A stretch of DNA of 64,000 nucleotides from an uncultured Paraglaciecola sp. (GTDB lineage Bacteria; Pseudomonadota; Gammaproteobacteria; Enterobacterales; Alteromonadaceae): assembly GCF_913020055.1 (NCBI RefSeq), contig NZ_CAJWCF010000004.1, positions 1 to 64,000 on the forward strand, read 5' to 3'. The notes under the pieces were generated by a model that had not been told where the DNA came from, ran no database searches, and saw only the letters and a list, made by a program, of their open reading frames with translations. Each line of letters begins with the position of its first letter. Position 1 is the stretch's first letter. Positions 29,676 through 34,678 of this stretch are shown here, piece after piece. A program made the translations under genes and the position numbers.

Positions 29676-30040
29676 ACCTAATTGTCACTAGGCGTTTGGT
29701 AAATTATGAATGGGCGCTTGAATATTCACCTATGGTTGGATTGAGTCTGTCCAATGAAAGGCATAAGTATTTGCAAACCAAGACTAAAGTTGAATAGCTT
29801 GGTTTGTAAAGCATGGTATGTTCTCGTTATAGGCATTTAACAAGACTAAAAGTTTATGTGAGTGTTGCTGAAACCTTAAAATATGAGTTGTTTTGTTTTA
29901 TATGACAAGACGTGCATTCCTAATTATATAAGAAGTTCAAGGATTTATTGGTAACAATATTCAACGCCAAAGGGATAAAAGTACTTTACTCAAGCTAGGA
30001 AACCGCTGTGATTATTGAAAGTGTAGGAGGAGGTAATTAC
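29676..30040. other. Intergenic region after moa operon, with long hairpin
   Basis: The gap holds a 13-bp stem, TTTGCAAACCAAG (29770-29782) against CTTGGTTTGTAAA (29798-29810), with one G-U pair and a 15-base loop. No T tract follows, so a pure terminator role is uncertain. The right part should carry the promoter of the binding-protein gene. No further ORF is supported. Confidence 0.5.
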
Positions 30041-30910
30041 ATGCAATGGATCCGATTTAAAAGTTTTCGGTTTTTGTATAGTTTAAATTTTGGCAAATTC
30101 ATATTTGGCTTATTTATATTGTTTGCTGTTTCCTCTCAATCATCCGCTAAAACATTGAAACAAGAATTAGATGATTTGCCTCAAATCAATATAGAAATAG
30201 CGTCGTTTCACTTCCCACCTTTCACTCAAAGAACCAAAAAAGGAGGAGTTTCAGGTAAGGGAGTTGAAACCGCCAAAGCCTTCTGCACGATTGCTCGCAT
30301 GACATGTGAAGTGATTCTCTACCCAACTGCTCGTGCCTATATGAATATAGAAAATGGCACTAGTGATGTTTTGATGACCGCTGATATACGTAGATTTGAG
30401 CGGTGTTGTGACTATAGCAAATGGTCTTACCCTTTTGTTGCAGGCTTGATTACAGAACGCTTAAATGATGATATACCGTTTAAAGAAGCCAACTTAAAAG
30501 GCCATAGTTTAGTTATGGTGAGAGGATGGCAATCCATTTATGACGTATATCCAAATCTCAAGGACTTAGTCGCTAAGGGTGAAGTTGAACTGATTGAAAC
30601 GAATTCAATCGAGTCAGCTATAAAGATTTATAGTCGAAGTAGAACTTCATTGTTATGGGGGTCAAGAAAGGTTTTTGAATGGTATTTTAACCAAATGTCG
30701 GTGCAGTGGAAGGAGGAAGACTTTAAACCTTTGGTGTTAAGTAGTGCAGGTATCTGGATTTCTAAACGAAGTGAGCAACATGAAAATATACTATATAGAT
30801 TCAATTTAGCTTTCCAATATTTAAAAACGCAAGGAAGTTTAGATAAAGAGAATTTTCTTGAGCCTTCCCTAATGAAATTAGTCTATTCTGAAGCTGAAAC
30901 TCCTAATTAG
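30041..30910 (+). CDS. Orphan periplasmic solute-binding protein (family 3-like)
   Basis: The ATG at 30041 is chosen because AGGAGGAGGT lies six bases upstream; the track start is earlier. The ~289-residue product has a signal peptide ending near SSQSSA and a family-3 binding-protein pattern: IEIASFHFPPFTQR, GVSGKGVETAKAFC, LYPTARAYMNIENGTSDVLM and YPFVAGLITER. Similar solitary proteins are common in Alteromonadales; no ABC permease or ATPase is adjacent. Cysteines at RMTCEV and RCCDY may form a disulfide. The ligand is unknown. Confidence 0.75.
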   Translation: MQWIRFKSFRFLYSLNFGKFIFGLFILFAVSSQSSAKTLKQELDDLPQINIEIASFHFPPFTQRTKKGGVSGKGVETAKAFCTIARMTCEVILYPTARAYMNIENGTSDVLMTADIRRFERCCDYSKWSYPFVAGLITERLNDDIPFKEANLKGHSLVMVRGWQSIYDVYPNLKDLVAKGEVELIETNSIESAIKIYSRSRTSLLWGSRKVFEWYFNQMSVQWKEEDFKPLVLSSAGIWISKRSEQHENILYRFNLAFQYLKTQGSLDKENFLEPSLMKLVYSEAETPN

Positions 30911-31032
30911 AAAAACCCTATTATCACCCATTCCATGGGTTTCTCTTTGTCTTTTTTGTCTTTTTTGTCTTCTTTGGCAATGCCCATCAATTTAGACAGT
31001 TGAACTACAAAGTCTATTCTGCCCCCATAATA
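30907..31032 (-). pseudogene. Decayed nitroreductase fragment with expanded KKD repeat
   Basis: Minus-strand translation reads GGRIDFVVQLSKLMGIAKED, then (KKD)2, then KEKPMEWVIIGFF and stop. It aligns with QIDVAIQLFEVMGITREDKEKRMEWMMRGF of the intact nitroreductase at 34007. An in-frame stop lies just upstream and no start or remaining domains were found. A 9-base unit (GACAAAAAA) is tandemly expanded within it. Confidence 0.5.
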
Positions 31033-31153
31033 TTCTTAGTATAGAAACCAATGTGGGTATTACTTCCAAGTGTTTTTTTCAGTAATAATTTGAGTGTTTA
31101 GCTTAGTTCGACCTTGCTACTTTTTAAATATAAGTGGCTTTTATATATTTTAT

Positions 31154-31993
31154 TCAACCCTTCCTATAGACCTCAAAATCAATCTCACTTAGGCGGTAGT
31201 AATAAACGATTGAAGCCACAATCAGTTGAAAATAAATGCAGCTGACAATGTCCTGATAGTCTCGCATATCCAGTGCAGAGAGGATGAGGTCGACTGATAG
31301 TTTAATTAGCACTGCCATCCCAGACAATACAAACAAATACACGGTGCGACGGGTATCGCGTATTCTTACTTGCTCAGGTTGCAAAGGATCGGGTTTTTGA
31401 AAGTAAACATAGTAATAAATCCCGCCTGCAAGGATCAGGTCTATTATGGCTAGGCCAAGCAGGTTGATGTAACCGGCGAAACCATCAAAGGGGTGTTGCA
31501 CTAAATACCAGATAAGAACGATGTACGTTATATGGCCTATTGCCAGTGCGTACAAATAGTTTTTGCCAATAAAGTCGGTCAGTTTACGGGGGCTAAGCTG
31601 AGCTTTTCTGCTTGGCCCTTGGTTTAGTTTACGCAGTAACTTAGCATAGTTTGTACTAATAATTGCAACCCAAATTAGAGGAGCCATTTGCAGCATAAAA
31701 TAAAAGGAACTCACCGATTGACTGTCCCAACCGAGTAACTCATCTGCTCCAATGGCGATGCTGAATACGAAAATGAATATACCAAGTATCATCATCAAAA
31801 AATTAGCGTTTCTATATTTAAGTATTTGCTTCTTAATTGTTTCCACCGAAACCGGATACAAGTTTGCATATTCACTGGGTGGATGTTGCTCAATGGCGTT
31901 TTCAGTTCGCTCCACCAGTATTTTGGGGAAGTAATAAGAGACTAAAATTATTTGGCTTAAAAATACGCCAAAAAGAAAGTCGATTGTATCCAT
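31154..31993 (-). CDS. Polytopic membrane protein, paralogue of 32220 gene
   Basis: Not a family I can name. The 279-residue protein has about six hydrophobic segments. It shares an unusual set of motifs with the upstream neighbour: YxPKILVER, PPSEYANLYPVSVETIKK, KYRN, and AQLSPRKLTDFI. These define a duplicated pair within one GntR-headed operon. A cytoplasmic loop between the first and second segments carries the PPxxYAxLY block. The last residues (SEIDFEVYRKG) also match the paralogue's end. Function unknown. Confidence 0.75.
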   Translation of the reverse strand: MDTIDFLFGVFLSQIILVSYYFPKILVERTENAIEQHPPSEYANLYPVSVETIKKQILKYRNANFLMMILGIFIFVFSIAIGADELLGWDSQSVSSFYFMLQMAPLIWVAIISTNYAKLLRKLNQGPSRKAQLSPRKLTDFIGKNYLYALAIGHITYIVLIWYLVQHPFDGFAGYINLLGLAIIDLILAGGIYYYVYFQKPDPLQPEQVRIRDTRRTVYLFVLSGMAVLIKLSVDLILSALDMRDYQDIVSCIYFQLIVASIVYYYRLSEIDFEVYRKG

Positions 31994-32075
31994 GTCGTGC
32001 TCCTTAAATCATTGACTTAGCAGGCTCTGGGCTCTGACTATTATTTTGTTTTTTCTACTCTGTATTTGCGTAAAC

Positions 32076-32165
32076 TCAGCCAGCATTATTTTTCGCTTTT
32101 AGTGTGGCGAGTATTACTATTACTGCCACCACCACGGTTATTCCGATAATCAACAAAATATGCAT
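32076..32165 (-). CDS. 29-residue single-span membrane peptide
   Basis: Too short for the ORF track. An ATG preceded by CAGGAGTC at ideal spacing opens MHILLIIGITVVVAVIVILATLKAK..., a single hydrophobic helix with a basic cytoplasmic tail (AKNNAG), then TGA. It lies between the two paralogous membrane genes on the same strand, so it should be co-transcribed. It is likely a small membrane subunit or regulator of the neighbours; coding status is inferred from the ribosome site and composition. Confidence 0.6.
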   Translation of the reverse strand: MHILLIIGITVVVAVIVILATLKAKNNAG

Positions 32166-32219
32166 ATTATGACTCCTGCTGAGTGGATAAAGCTGTTCAC
32201 TGAGCTATAAGGGTTTTCC

Positions 32220-33080
32220 TTAGACCGGGGCATCATTTTTATAATTATCGAAATTGATATCTTCAATTTTAATAGAGCGCAACATGGCACCTATGCCAAA
32301 TACCGCTATCAATTGCCAGTAGAGACTGTTTAAGACAATTTCGAACTGGTCTAAGGCATAAGTCTGAAAGGCGACCGTGACCAACAAAAAAATACTGATT
32401 ACGATACTTACAGTGGCCATTGAATGCAGTGACAGACTAATTTCTTTGTTCCGGTCCCGACTATCCTGATAGGGATTGAGTTTTCTGCCATACAGTTTCC
32501 ATACACCCAAGGCAACAAACAGGCCGTTGCTTAGACTAAGTGCTGAGACGGTAACCACTGCGTCAAATACCCAGGTCCATTGATTGACATACAGAACGAA
32601 CAGAATAAAAGTCACATACAGTACTAGCGCAAAACCAAACAAAATCGGGGATATAAAGTCAAACAGTCGGCGAGGGCTGAGCTCGGCGTGACGGGCAGTA
32701 CGAGTATCGTTTATTCGCATTAAACGTAGTTCCCTGAAACCTGAAATTTCTAGCAATGCAAGGGGTATGAATTGCAGCATACCAAATGCCAATGGCAGGG
32801 CTTCCAAGCGGGTATGTTGGGGATCATAGTCACCGGCAAAGAGTCCGTAAAGAAGCAACACCCCTAAACCACAGGCCAAAATAATGTGATTGAACAGACG
32901 ATATTTTGCCTGGCCCTTTTGTATTGTATCTAAGGACCCAGTGTAGAGTTTTGCATAGTTTTGCGGTGGGTAGTTATTTATAACGTAGCCCATTCGGCGC
33001 AGGAGTTGTCGCGGATAGACATAAGAAATCAATATGATTTGACAGAGGAAAACTAAGATAAATAATAGGTTAATTGTCAT
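32220..33080 (-). CDS. Polytopic membrane protein, paralogue of 31154 gene
   Basis: A 286-residue protein of unknown function with about six hydrophobic segments. Shared motifs with the downstream paralogue include YVYPRQLLRR, PPQNYAKLYTGSLDTIQK, KYRL and AELSPRRLFDFI, and a common ending (KIEDINFDNYK). It starts ten bases after the GntR gene and so probably belongs to that regulator's operon, as is common for YtrA-type GntR proteins that control neighbouring membrane systems. No ATPase is encoded nearby, unlike typical ytr operons. Confidence 0.75.
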   Translation of the reverse strand: MTINLLFILVFLCQIILISYVYPRQLLRRMGYVINNYPPQNYAKLYTGSLDTIQKGQAKYRLFNHIILACGLGVLLLYGLFAGDYDPQHTRLEALPLAFGMLQFIPLALLEISGFRELRLMRINDTRTARHAELSPRRLFDFISPILFGFALVLYVTFILFVLYVNQWTWVFDAVVTVSALSLSNGLFVALGVWKLYGRKLNPYQDSRDRNKEISLSLHSMATVSIVISIFLLVTVAFQTYALDQFEIVLNSLYWQLIAVFGIGAMLRSIKIEDINFDNYKNDAPV

Positions 33081-33090
33081 GAGCTGCTCC

Positions 33091-33471
33091 TTATTTGTTT
33101 CGTTCGTTCATTAGATTGGCAAAGGCAATACGAATTTCTGAATCCGTTACCCCAGCATTTCTAAATGAGCTGATGCTTACACTAAGTTGCTGATTGACCC
33201 AGGCATTCAAATCAATACTGCAATTTGCTTTAGCATCCGGGTGTACAAAGGTGCCACGATAGCCACGTGTTTGGATCACAGCATCCCGTTCAAGCAGGCG
33301 ATACGCTTTCGCAACAGTTTTACTGTTCAGCTCAAGATCATTTGCTAGCTGTCTAATTGAAGGTAGAGGATCACCCGGTTTTTTACTGTCGCTGGCGATG
33401 GCCTGTTTAATTTGTGCTACCAATTGTGCAAATAACGGAATGGGGTCATCAATGTTAACTATTATTTCCAC
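33091..33471 (-). CDS. GntR-family regulator, YtrA subfamily
   Basis: A 126-residue regulator. The winged HTH occupies residues ~8-75 (IPLFAQLVAQIKQAI, GDPLPSIRQLANDLELN, TVAKAYRLLERD, RGYRGTFV) and the short C-terminal helical part (~50 residues) lacks a ligand domain, as in the YtrA subfamily. It heads the leftward operon with the two paralogous membrane proteins and the small peptide. Autoregulation is likely for this subfamily, but I could not identify a clear operator upstream. Confidence 0.88.
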   Translation of the reverse strand: MEIIVNIDDPIPLFAQLVAQIKQAIASDSKKPGDPLPSIRQLANDLELNSKTVAKAYRLLERDAVIQTRGYRGTFVHPDAKANCSIDLNAWVNQQLSVSISSFRNAGVTDSEIRIAFANLMNERNK

Positions 33472-34006
33472 TATTCAATTGCTCCATATGTACCCTGTGA
33501 TGTAATGGTACAACTAAATCATGTTTTTACAAGTAACTATGTTGATCTTTTCTTTTGTAATGACTTAAGTAATTGAAATTAAAGTTTTTTTAATTGTTAA
33601 TTGAAGAGGTGTTAATGCTTAATCTAAAGAAACATAGATATTTCTTCATTTTGTAAATGGGATACAAGGGCTGTAGTAGCTAAATAAAGTTCAACTTTTA
33701 TCGCACAGATATCTTATATTTCACTGTTCTAGCCACCCAAAAGGCATGGGATAATGGTTTAGAATGCAAAGTCGCCAGACAAGCCAGAATGAATGAGCAC
33801 CAACCTATAGCAATGGCCTAAACGCTTAAAAAAAACTTGAAAAGCAGGAAGGTAGAGACGAGTAAATCCGCAAACTGGCGAATAAATTAAAATTTAAAAA
33901 TGGCTGTTATACACGCTAAGAGCGGCTATTAAAACTAGCCGCTCTTTTTAATGTTTGAGATGTGGGCATATTTCCAGCGGGACAATCTAGTTCACGCTAG
34001 GCTGCT
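33472..34006. other. 535-base gap with an orphan terminator
   Basis: The gap separates the GntR operon promoter from the end of the nitroreductase gene. Only tiny ORFs (under 12 codons) occur. A strong plus-strand terminator sits at 33918-33949, yet no plus-strand gene precedes it, so an unrecognised RNA of about 100-250 bases may end there. Confidence 0.5.
33918..33949 (+). terminator. Strong rho-independent terminator
   Basis: AAGAGCGGCTA-TTAAAAC-TAGCCGCTCTT, an 11-bp perfect stem with 7-base loop, runs into TTT on the plus strand. It lies 60 bases beyond the 3' end of the leftward nitroreductase gene, for which the T tract is on the wrong side. Confidence 0.8.
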
Positions 34007-34678
34007 CTAAAACCCATGATAAGACACAAAGTCTTTATTATCAGCGCGGGTTGAACGCACTTCGTTCGCCGCAAAGTCTTCATCTGGGTAACCCATCGCA
34101 ATACAAATCATAATTGCTTCGTCATCTGGTATTTGTGCATGTTTGTGTACTACATCGGATTGCATAATTCCTTGGCCGTTAATGACACAACCTAAACCTA
34201 GATCCCAAGCGGCTAGCACAATGCCGTAAGCCAATGAGCCCAAACCAAACTGTGTAATGCCTGCAGGCTCGAGGGTTTTGTCGTAAGTTAGAACAAGTGA
34301 TACGGGTGCGTCAAACTGACGAAAGCCTCTCATCATCCATTCCATACGTTTTTCTTTGTCTTCTCTGGTAATACCCATCACTTCAAATAATTGAATAGCC
34401 ACGTCAATCTGACGTTGTCTGTGTATACCTTCATAATCTTCTTTATATGGGAAGTCACGAACATTGGGTTTACCCGCCAGCGTTTCCTTAGTGTTACCTT
34501 CACGTATTTTATCTAGAACATCACCTGTAACAGCATGGATTTTCCACGTCTGGGTGTTGTAAGACGAAGGCGCCCACTTCGCTGCGTTGATAACCGCATC
34601 TACTAGTTCTTTCGATACTGCTTTGTCTTTGAACCCTCTAACACTCTTTCGTGATGCGGCAAATTCTGCAAAATTCAT
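34007..34678 (-). CDS. Nitroreductase family oxidoreductase
   Basis: A 223-residue flavin nitroreductase. FMN-contact motifs are SRKSVRGFKDKAVS near the start, WAPSSYNTQTWK, and GLGSLAYGIVLAAWDLGLGC, with late AIMICIAMGYPDE. Such enzymes reduce nitroaromatics, quinones or enones with NAD(P)H. It stands alone, leftward, with its own promoter region. A decayed fragment of a homologue lies 3 kb away at 30907, pointing to an ancient local duplication. Confidence 0.9.
   Translation of the reverse strand: MNFAEFAASRKSVRGFKDKAVSKELVDAVINAAKWAPSSYNTQTWKIHAVTGDVLDKIREGNTKETLAGKPNVRDFPYKEDYEGIHRQRQIDVAIQLFEVMGITREDKEKRMEWMMRGFRQFDAPVSLVLTYDKTLEPAGITQFGLGSLAYGIVLAAWDLGLGCVINGQGIMQSDVVHKHAQIPDDEAIMICIAMGYPDEDFAANEVRSTRADNKDFVSYHGF

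Follow-up and report, generated by a model that had tools for sequence, protein, structure and literature searches.

A YtrA-type GntR regulator paired with an undescribed family of seven-helix membrane proteins in a small, probably self-repressed operon

YtrA-type GntR regulators usually control transporters (PMC4494728). What, then, does such a regulator control when the genes behind it encode membrane proteins of no recognised family and no ATPase? We address this question for an operon of an uncultured Paraglaciecola sp., located in a stretch of 64,000 nucleotides (contig NZ_CAJWCF010000004.1, positions 1 to 64,000) that is referred to here as the window. The operon lies on the minus strand at 31154–33471, and all four of its open reading frames are where the first-pass annotation had placed a GntR regulator, two paralogous membrane proteins and a 29-residue peptide. 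The gene order on this strand is gntR (33091–33471, 126 residues, GTG start), MP-A (32220–33080, 286 residues), the 29-codon ORF (32076–32165) and MP-B (31154–31993, 279 residues). No promoter-like sites above chance level were found in the operon region. The intergenic gaps gave no match to Rfam, which together with an ordinary folding energy (z = −0.98) speaks against a structured RNA within them. The operon contains no ATPase, as had been stated, and does not have the combination of ATPase and permease genes that marks a YtrA–ABC transporter operon. An ABC exporter was rejected on this basis, since no ATPase recurs in the homologous operons either: among the recurrent neighbours an ABC ATPase is near only three loci, and in the one inspected (L024) it is on the other strand.

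MP-A and MP-B are indeed paralogues, with 27% identity over their full length (E = 3e-26), and the motifs PPxxYAxLY and LSPR(K/R)LxDFI noted in the earlier annotation occur in both. Its description of them as belonging to no recognised family also stands: neither protein scores above a curated Pfam or NCBIfam cut-off, and 52 homologues of the membrane proteins gave only scattered weak matches in the same databases. AlphaFold2 produced confident models of each protein alone (pLDDT 94.4 for MP-A and 92.2 for MP-B), in which the seven helices are laid out alike and match no solved fold; a search of PDB and viral folds with these models gave no match at E < 0.001. A weak match to the PDB sequence 9u9h (E = 0.0095) was judged to be due to chance. 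The searches for a known membrane family (Pfam, NCBIfam, PADLOC, PDB sequence and fold) were thus all negative, and the proteins contain no motifs indicating transport, lipid chemistry or wall chemistry. They constitute a new, undescribed family of seven-helix membrane proteins. One lead is DUF3169 (PF11368), which also comprises multi-span membrane proteins of likewise unassigned function, and which matches weakly over TM2–TM3 in 4 of the 52 family members (best E = 1.9e-4). However, MP-B scores 16.5 bits against a gathering threshold of 31.6 bits and MP-A gives no match whatever; the matches do not amount to membership.

Hydropathy, charge and the models together predict seven transmembrane helices, with the N-terminus outside and the C-terminus inside the cell. 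The mean number of Lys and Arg residues is 7.1 in loop 1, 6.5 in loop 3, 4.3 in loop 5 and 2.8 in the tail, all of which are cytoplasmic in this topology, and does not exceed 0.6 in the outside loops. The family motifs PPxxYPKLYP, RxAxLxPRxLFDF, LYGKKxDPYQ and NFDVYK are all on the predicted cytoplasmic side, and the 30 most conserved positions include 21 in cytoplasmic parts and none in the outside loops.

A maximum-likelihood tree divides the family into an A group, in which MP-A is placed near proteins from Alteromonadaceae and Colwelliaceae, and a deep B group that includes MP-B, with support that is not firm (93/86). A recent duplication giving rise to A and B within the host lineage is contradicted by this tree. 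Proteins of the B type are encoded alone behind their own GntR at several loci (L018, L065, L066, L067, L070 and L117), and in Marinicella sediminis (L046) A is followed by B, as in the window. No third copy was found in the host genome. The window operon therefore appears from the tree to combine two old membrane-protein lineages under one regulator, and such a joining would have happened at least twice.

The family profile identified 54 loci in named genomes and further loci among relatives. They come from Gamma- and Alphaproteobacteria, Acidobacteriota, Calditrichota, Ignavibacteriota, Myxococcota and Verrucomicrobiota (six phyla), and no archaeal or actinobacterial genome is among the profile matches in the named genomes. 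Throughout these phyla the membrane protein is linked to GntR: 66 of 72 homologues are encoded on the same strand as a YtrA-type GntR gene and no more than 150 nt behind it (median gap 10 nt), without ABC genes. The six exceptions are second copies (window MP-B, L041 and L046), a locus with an intervening hydrolase gene (L113), and L055 and L063, at which no regulator was detected. What had been presented as a four-gene unit is thus better described as a core of GntR and one membrane protein, with a second membrane protein and a peptide as optional additions. The regulators have a median identity of 62%, as against 31% for the membrane proteins, and the pairwise identities of the two correlate (r = 0.58).

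The assignment of the regulator to the YtrA type was borne out. Its GntR domain covers residues 15–76 of 126 (Pfam GntR, 1.3e-13), and the protein has the architecture and size of the YtrA subfamily, namely a winged helix followed by a short C-terminal domain (about 50 residues), 120–130 residues overall. Its profile matches the short solved regulators 6sbs, 3by6 and 4ham in the PDB, of which 6sbs is YtrASa of Sulfolobus. It is 61–68% identical to the regulators of nearby relatives.

Just upstream of this gene, 17 nt before its start, is a putative operator (TGTACCATTACATCACAGGGTACA, 33489–33512, minus strand) with the inverted repeat GTACC-N12-GGTAC. Of 68 non-redundant loci, 61 have this repeat ahead of gntR, with 9 or 10 of 10 positions matching; 9 of 10 is reached by 0.16% of shuffled sequences. 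The spacer is exactly 12, other spacers between 6 and 23 being found at 0–3 loci each with the exception of 21 (28 loci), which is the signal of a third half-site. Across loci the palindrome is mostly 36–44 nt before the gntR start codon. In its extended form, TGTACC-N12-GGTACA, it resembles a YtrA operator, which is a palindrome of about 24 bp that lies ahead of the regulator's own operon and has its GT/AC half-sites far apart, and we regard it as a candidate on the basis of this pattern. A pattern search allowing up to one mismatch found a single copy in the window genome, at 33489–33512, so that the simplest reading is a self-controlled regulon of one operon. By analogy with YtrA and YtrASa (PMC12772383; PMC6746942), GntR probably represses its own operon. 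A separate observation concerns a very distant branch of the membrane-protein family (L121–L124, from G315, G407, G005 and G014), detected at about 70 bits. Its members are encoded directly behind a YtrA-type GntR, and three of the four loci have two tandem palindromes upstream.

The first-pass annotation took the missing ATPase as a possible sign of a different kind of envelope system. By itself the lack of an ATPase does not make the system a new kind, because operons that pair YtrA with a membrane protein and have no ABC genes have already been described in Sulfolobus and actinomycetes (PMC6746942). Within this known type of operon, what is new here is the membrane-protein family, the operator and the recurrent micropeptides. 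The YtrASa operon of Sulfolobus acidocaldarius (Saci_1851–Saci_1850, together with Saci_2078; PMC6746942) likewise begins with a YtrA-type GntR gene followed by a membrane-protein gene and has no ABC genes; the two also have in common autorepression (presumed here), two membrane proteins under one regulator and a very small regulon. It differs in being archaeal, in having a compact 14-bp core operator rather than a palindrome of 24 bp with half-sites 12 nt apart, and in that no micropeptide has been reported for it; the likeness drawn here is one of gene layout. The actinomycete SCO3812 group (Tsypik et al., 2016), as summarised in PMC6746942, also pairs a YtrA-like regulator with a membrane protein instead of ABC genes; it belongs to a different phylum and is likened to the window operon by that description. 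The ytrGABCDEF operon of Bacillus subtilis (PMC12772383) is similar in that it regulates itself, as we presume for the window operon, and encodes both a YtrA repressor and YtrG, a small transmembrane protein. There, however, an ABC transporter serves as the effector, ytrG stands first in the operon name, ahead of ytrA, and no seven-helix protein of the window family is known. By description, YtrG and the window peptide agree in kind and size.

The 29-codon ORF of the window has the features claimed for it, with AGGAG 7 nt 5′ of the ATG and a single predicted membrane helix (MHILLIIGITVVVAVIVILATLKAKNNAG). In 5000 rounds of dinucleotide shuffling, the 226-nt gap never yielded an ORF that equalled it in length, hydrophobicity and ribosome site. 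In 12 of 75 cases (the window counted) a membrane-protein gene is followed on its own strand by a small hydrophobic ORF that has a ribosome site, compared with 1 of 75 for the antisense strand as control; one of the 12 (L043) may be due to chance. Two kinds are prominent among them. Kind 1 peptides are 37–55 residues long and consist of a helix and a charged tail, with the consensus METxGFIFGLSGLSF...LKKEFEELKK; they occur in Calditrichota, Ignavibacteriota and Gammaproteobacteria. Those of L030 and L072 were detected by profile and not by eye, and the L072 peptide is encoded behind a hydrolase gene. Kind 2 peptides are 25–26 residues long, and their start overlaps the stop of a B-type gene (L065/L114, L115 and L117). 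Between the sister species represented by L114 and L115 the peptide gene has three synonymous and no nonsynonymous changes, and the comparison of L023 with L024 gives dN/dS of about 0.4.

The window peptide was considered as a member of kind 1 and rejected, as it does not score against the micropeptide profile. Thus peptides recur in this place and of this kind in relatives, while the window 29-mer itself has no sequence relative. The latter fact, and the absence of any peptide from most relatives, could be taken to mean that the window ORF is untranslated and that the three larger genes alone matter, but its strong ribosome site, the shuffling result and the excess of position-matched peptides over the control (12 versus 1) make this improbable. 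Most likely the peptide is a small subunit, accessory or regulatory, that is packed against the seven-helix protein, which we infer only from the recurrent position. Outside the operon, kind 1 peptides are rare (2 of 369 genomes of the class). The better of these matches, from another gammaproteobacterium, is a stand-alone micropeptide at L104:1486–1626 with a transmembrane helix and a short coil (MSTFVILAFVFGLVGFSLAAVAFAQTATLKKRIDRLEARSQTESAP); neither a GntR nor a family membrane protein is encoded beside it.

At nine loci (L014/L026, L034, L038, L041, L046, L050, L072/L110, L113 and L119) the operon also includes, on the same strand, a gene for a hydrolase of 720–840 residues with a class C β-lactamase/AmpH-like fold. 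Both examples that were scanned have a weak match to DUF3471. At L020 and L066 a relative of the hydrolase is encoded further away on the opposite strand, and the window operon and most loci have no hydrolase. At L041 and L113 its gene is located between GntR (or GntR and one membrane protein) and a further membrane protein, which indicates that the gene order of the operon is fluid. The hydrolase is probably exported, and its presence in the operon points outward, to the envelope, without fixing the reaction.

The operon is patchy in the genus, only 8 of 22 genomes, the host included, having any match, and so is not part of a core envelope function. In four congeners the block moaA–moaE ... 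nitroreductase–YhhN is conserved, continuing through fur and flavodoxin in three of them, and in none of the four does the slot between moaE and nitroreductase contain a GntR or a family membrane protein. In the window this variable slot is 29676–34006; the congeners have an HppD-like gene, a glycosidase-like enzyme and others in it (names assigned by eye). Because the contents differ in this way, we regard the operon as a patchy insert in a variable slot, and it was probably acquired. A mobile element was considered and rejected, with no match among the plasmids and phages searched. Just past the end of MP-B is a decayed nitroreductase fragment (30913–31004, minus strand), in two pieces that are 80–83% identical to the intact gene at 34007–34678, so that the operon sits between an intact and a broken nitroreductase copy.

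Our preferred reading, to which we assign a probability of a little under one half, is that the four genes form one operon under repression by its own product, GntR, and that its inner-membrane proteins protect or adjust the envelope. A dimer of the YtrA-type GntR would bind the 24-bp TGTACC-N12-GGTACA just upstream of its own gene, as YtrA precedents suggest, and would thereby repress itself, both seven-helix proteins and the single-helix peptide. Repression may be relieved when the inner membrane or the cycle of cell-wall precursors is disturbed; the B. subtilis YtrA operon answers to inhibitors of the lipid II cycle (PMC12772383). Once made, the membrane proteins would have this protective or adjusting effect from within the inner membrane, and in some relatives the same operon would also supply the probably exported hydrolase of β-lactamase fold. 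The occurrence of that hydrolase in the operons of nine relatives helps the envelope reading, and the function of the operon is probably in the envelope.

It is doubtful that the seven-helix proteins are instead exporters or importers of small molecules, with GntR sensing the substrate directly. Such a function would agree with the usual targets of YtrA regulators (PMC4494728) and with the transporter role proposed for the Sulfolobus membrane proteins (PMC6746942). However, there is no transporter family or fold match and no ATPase, the outside loops are short, and conserved polar residues within the membrane are few except in TM1, TM3 and TM7.

Rather unlikely is signalling of the kind known from SdpR and SdpI of Bacillus subtilis, where a small autorepressor without a ligand domain and a multi-span membrane protein form a two-gene operon; SdpR is of the ArsR type, and SdpI is from a different family from the window membrane proteins. 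Here the active seven-helix protein would be a sensor whose cytoplasmic face captures the repressor at the membrane and so derepresses its own operon, with the micropeptide or hydrolase tuning the signal. The conservation of the cytoplasmic face above all other parts of the membrane protein is consistent with this, as are the near inseparability of regulator and membrane protein and the correlation of their identities, although shared ancestry alone would also produce such a correlation. The C-terminal domain of the repressor is short, at about 50 residues, and none of the YtrA members has a known physiological ligand (PMC6746942). Against a sensor, Pfam gives no sign of SdpI homology (no match for MP-A or MP-B at E up to 10, and none among the 25 families listed for the 52 members), and one type of regulator serves both the A and B clades, which have few residues in common, so that a specific interface is not obvious. 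Finally, it is very unlikely that the proteins confer self-immunity to a toxin or an envelope-active peptide made by neighbours. The patchy presence and the variable genomic slot speak for such a role, and the pairing of a regulator with a membrane protein is as in immunity loci, but among about 60 loci no recurrent neighbour resembles a toxin or bacteriocin, PADLOC gave no convincing match, and none was found on the plasmids or phages searched.

The envelope operon that we favour touches on a long-standing blank, the input signal of YtrA regulators. A bolder and quite unlikely proposal, made attractive by the lack of a known ligand for any YtrA member (PMC6746942), is that the seven-helix proteins are a receptor family with a cytoplasmic signalling face that directly captures the ligand-less YtrA repressor, the single-helix micropeptides being built-in modulators. 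If true, such a membrane switch would explain why no YtrA ligand is known. The family offers two deep paralogue clades for comparison and membrane micropeptides at a fixed genomic address. In six phyla one such membrane protein is hardly ever found apart from a YtrA regulator, whose operator is sharply defined, so that a single small operon is enough to test the regulator, its target and a candidate sensor.
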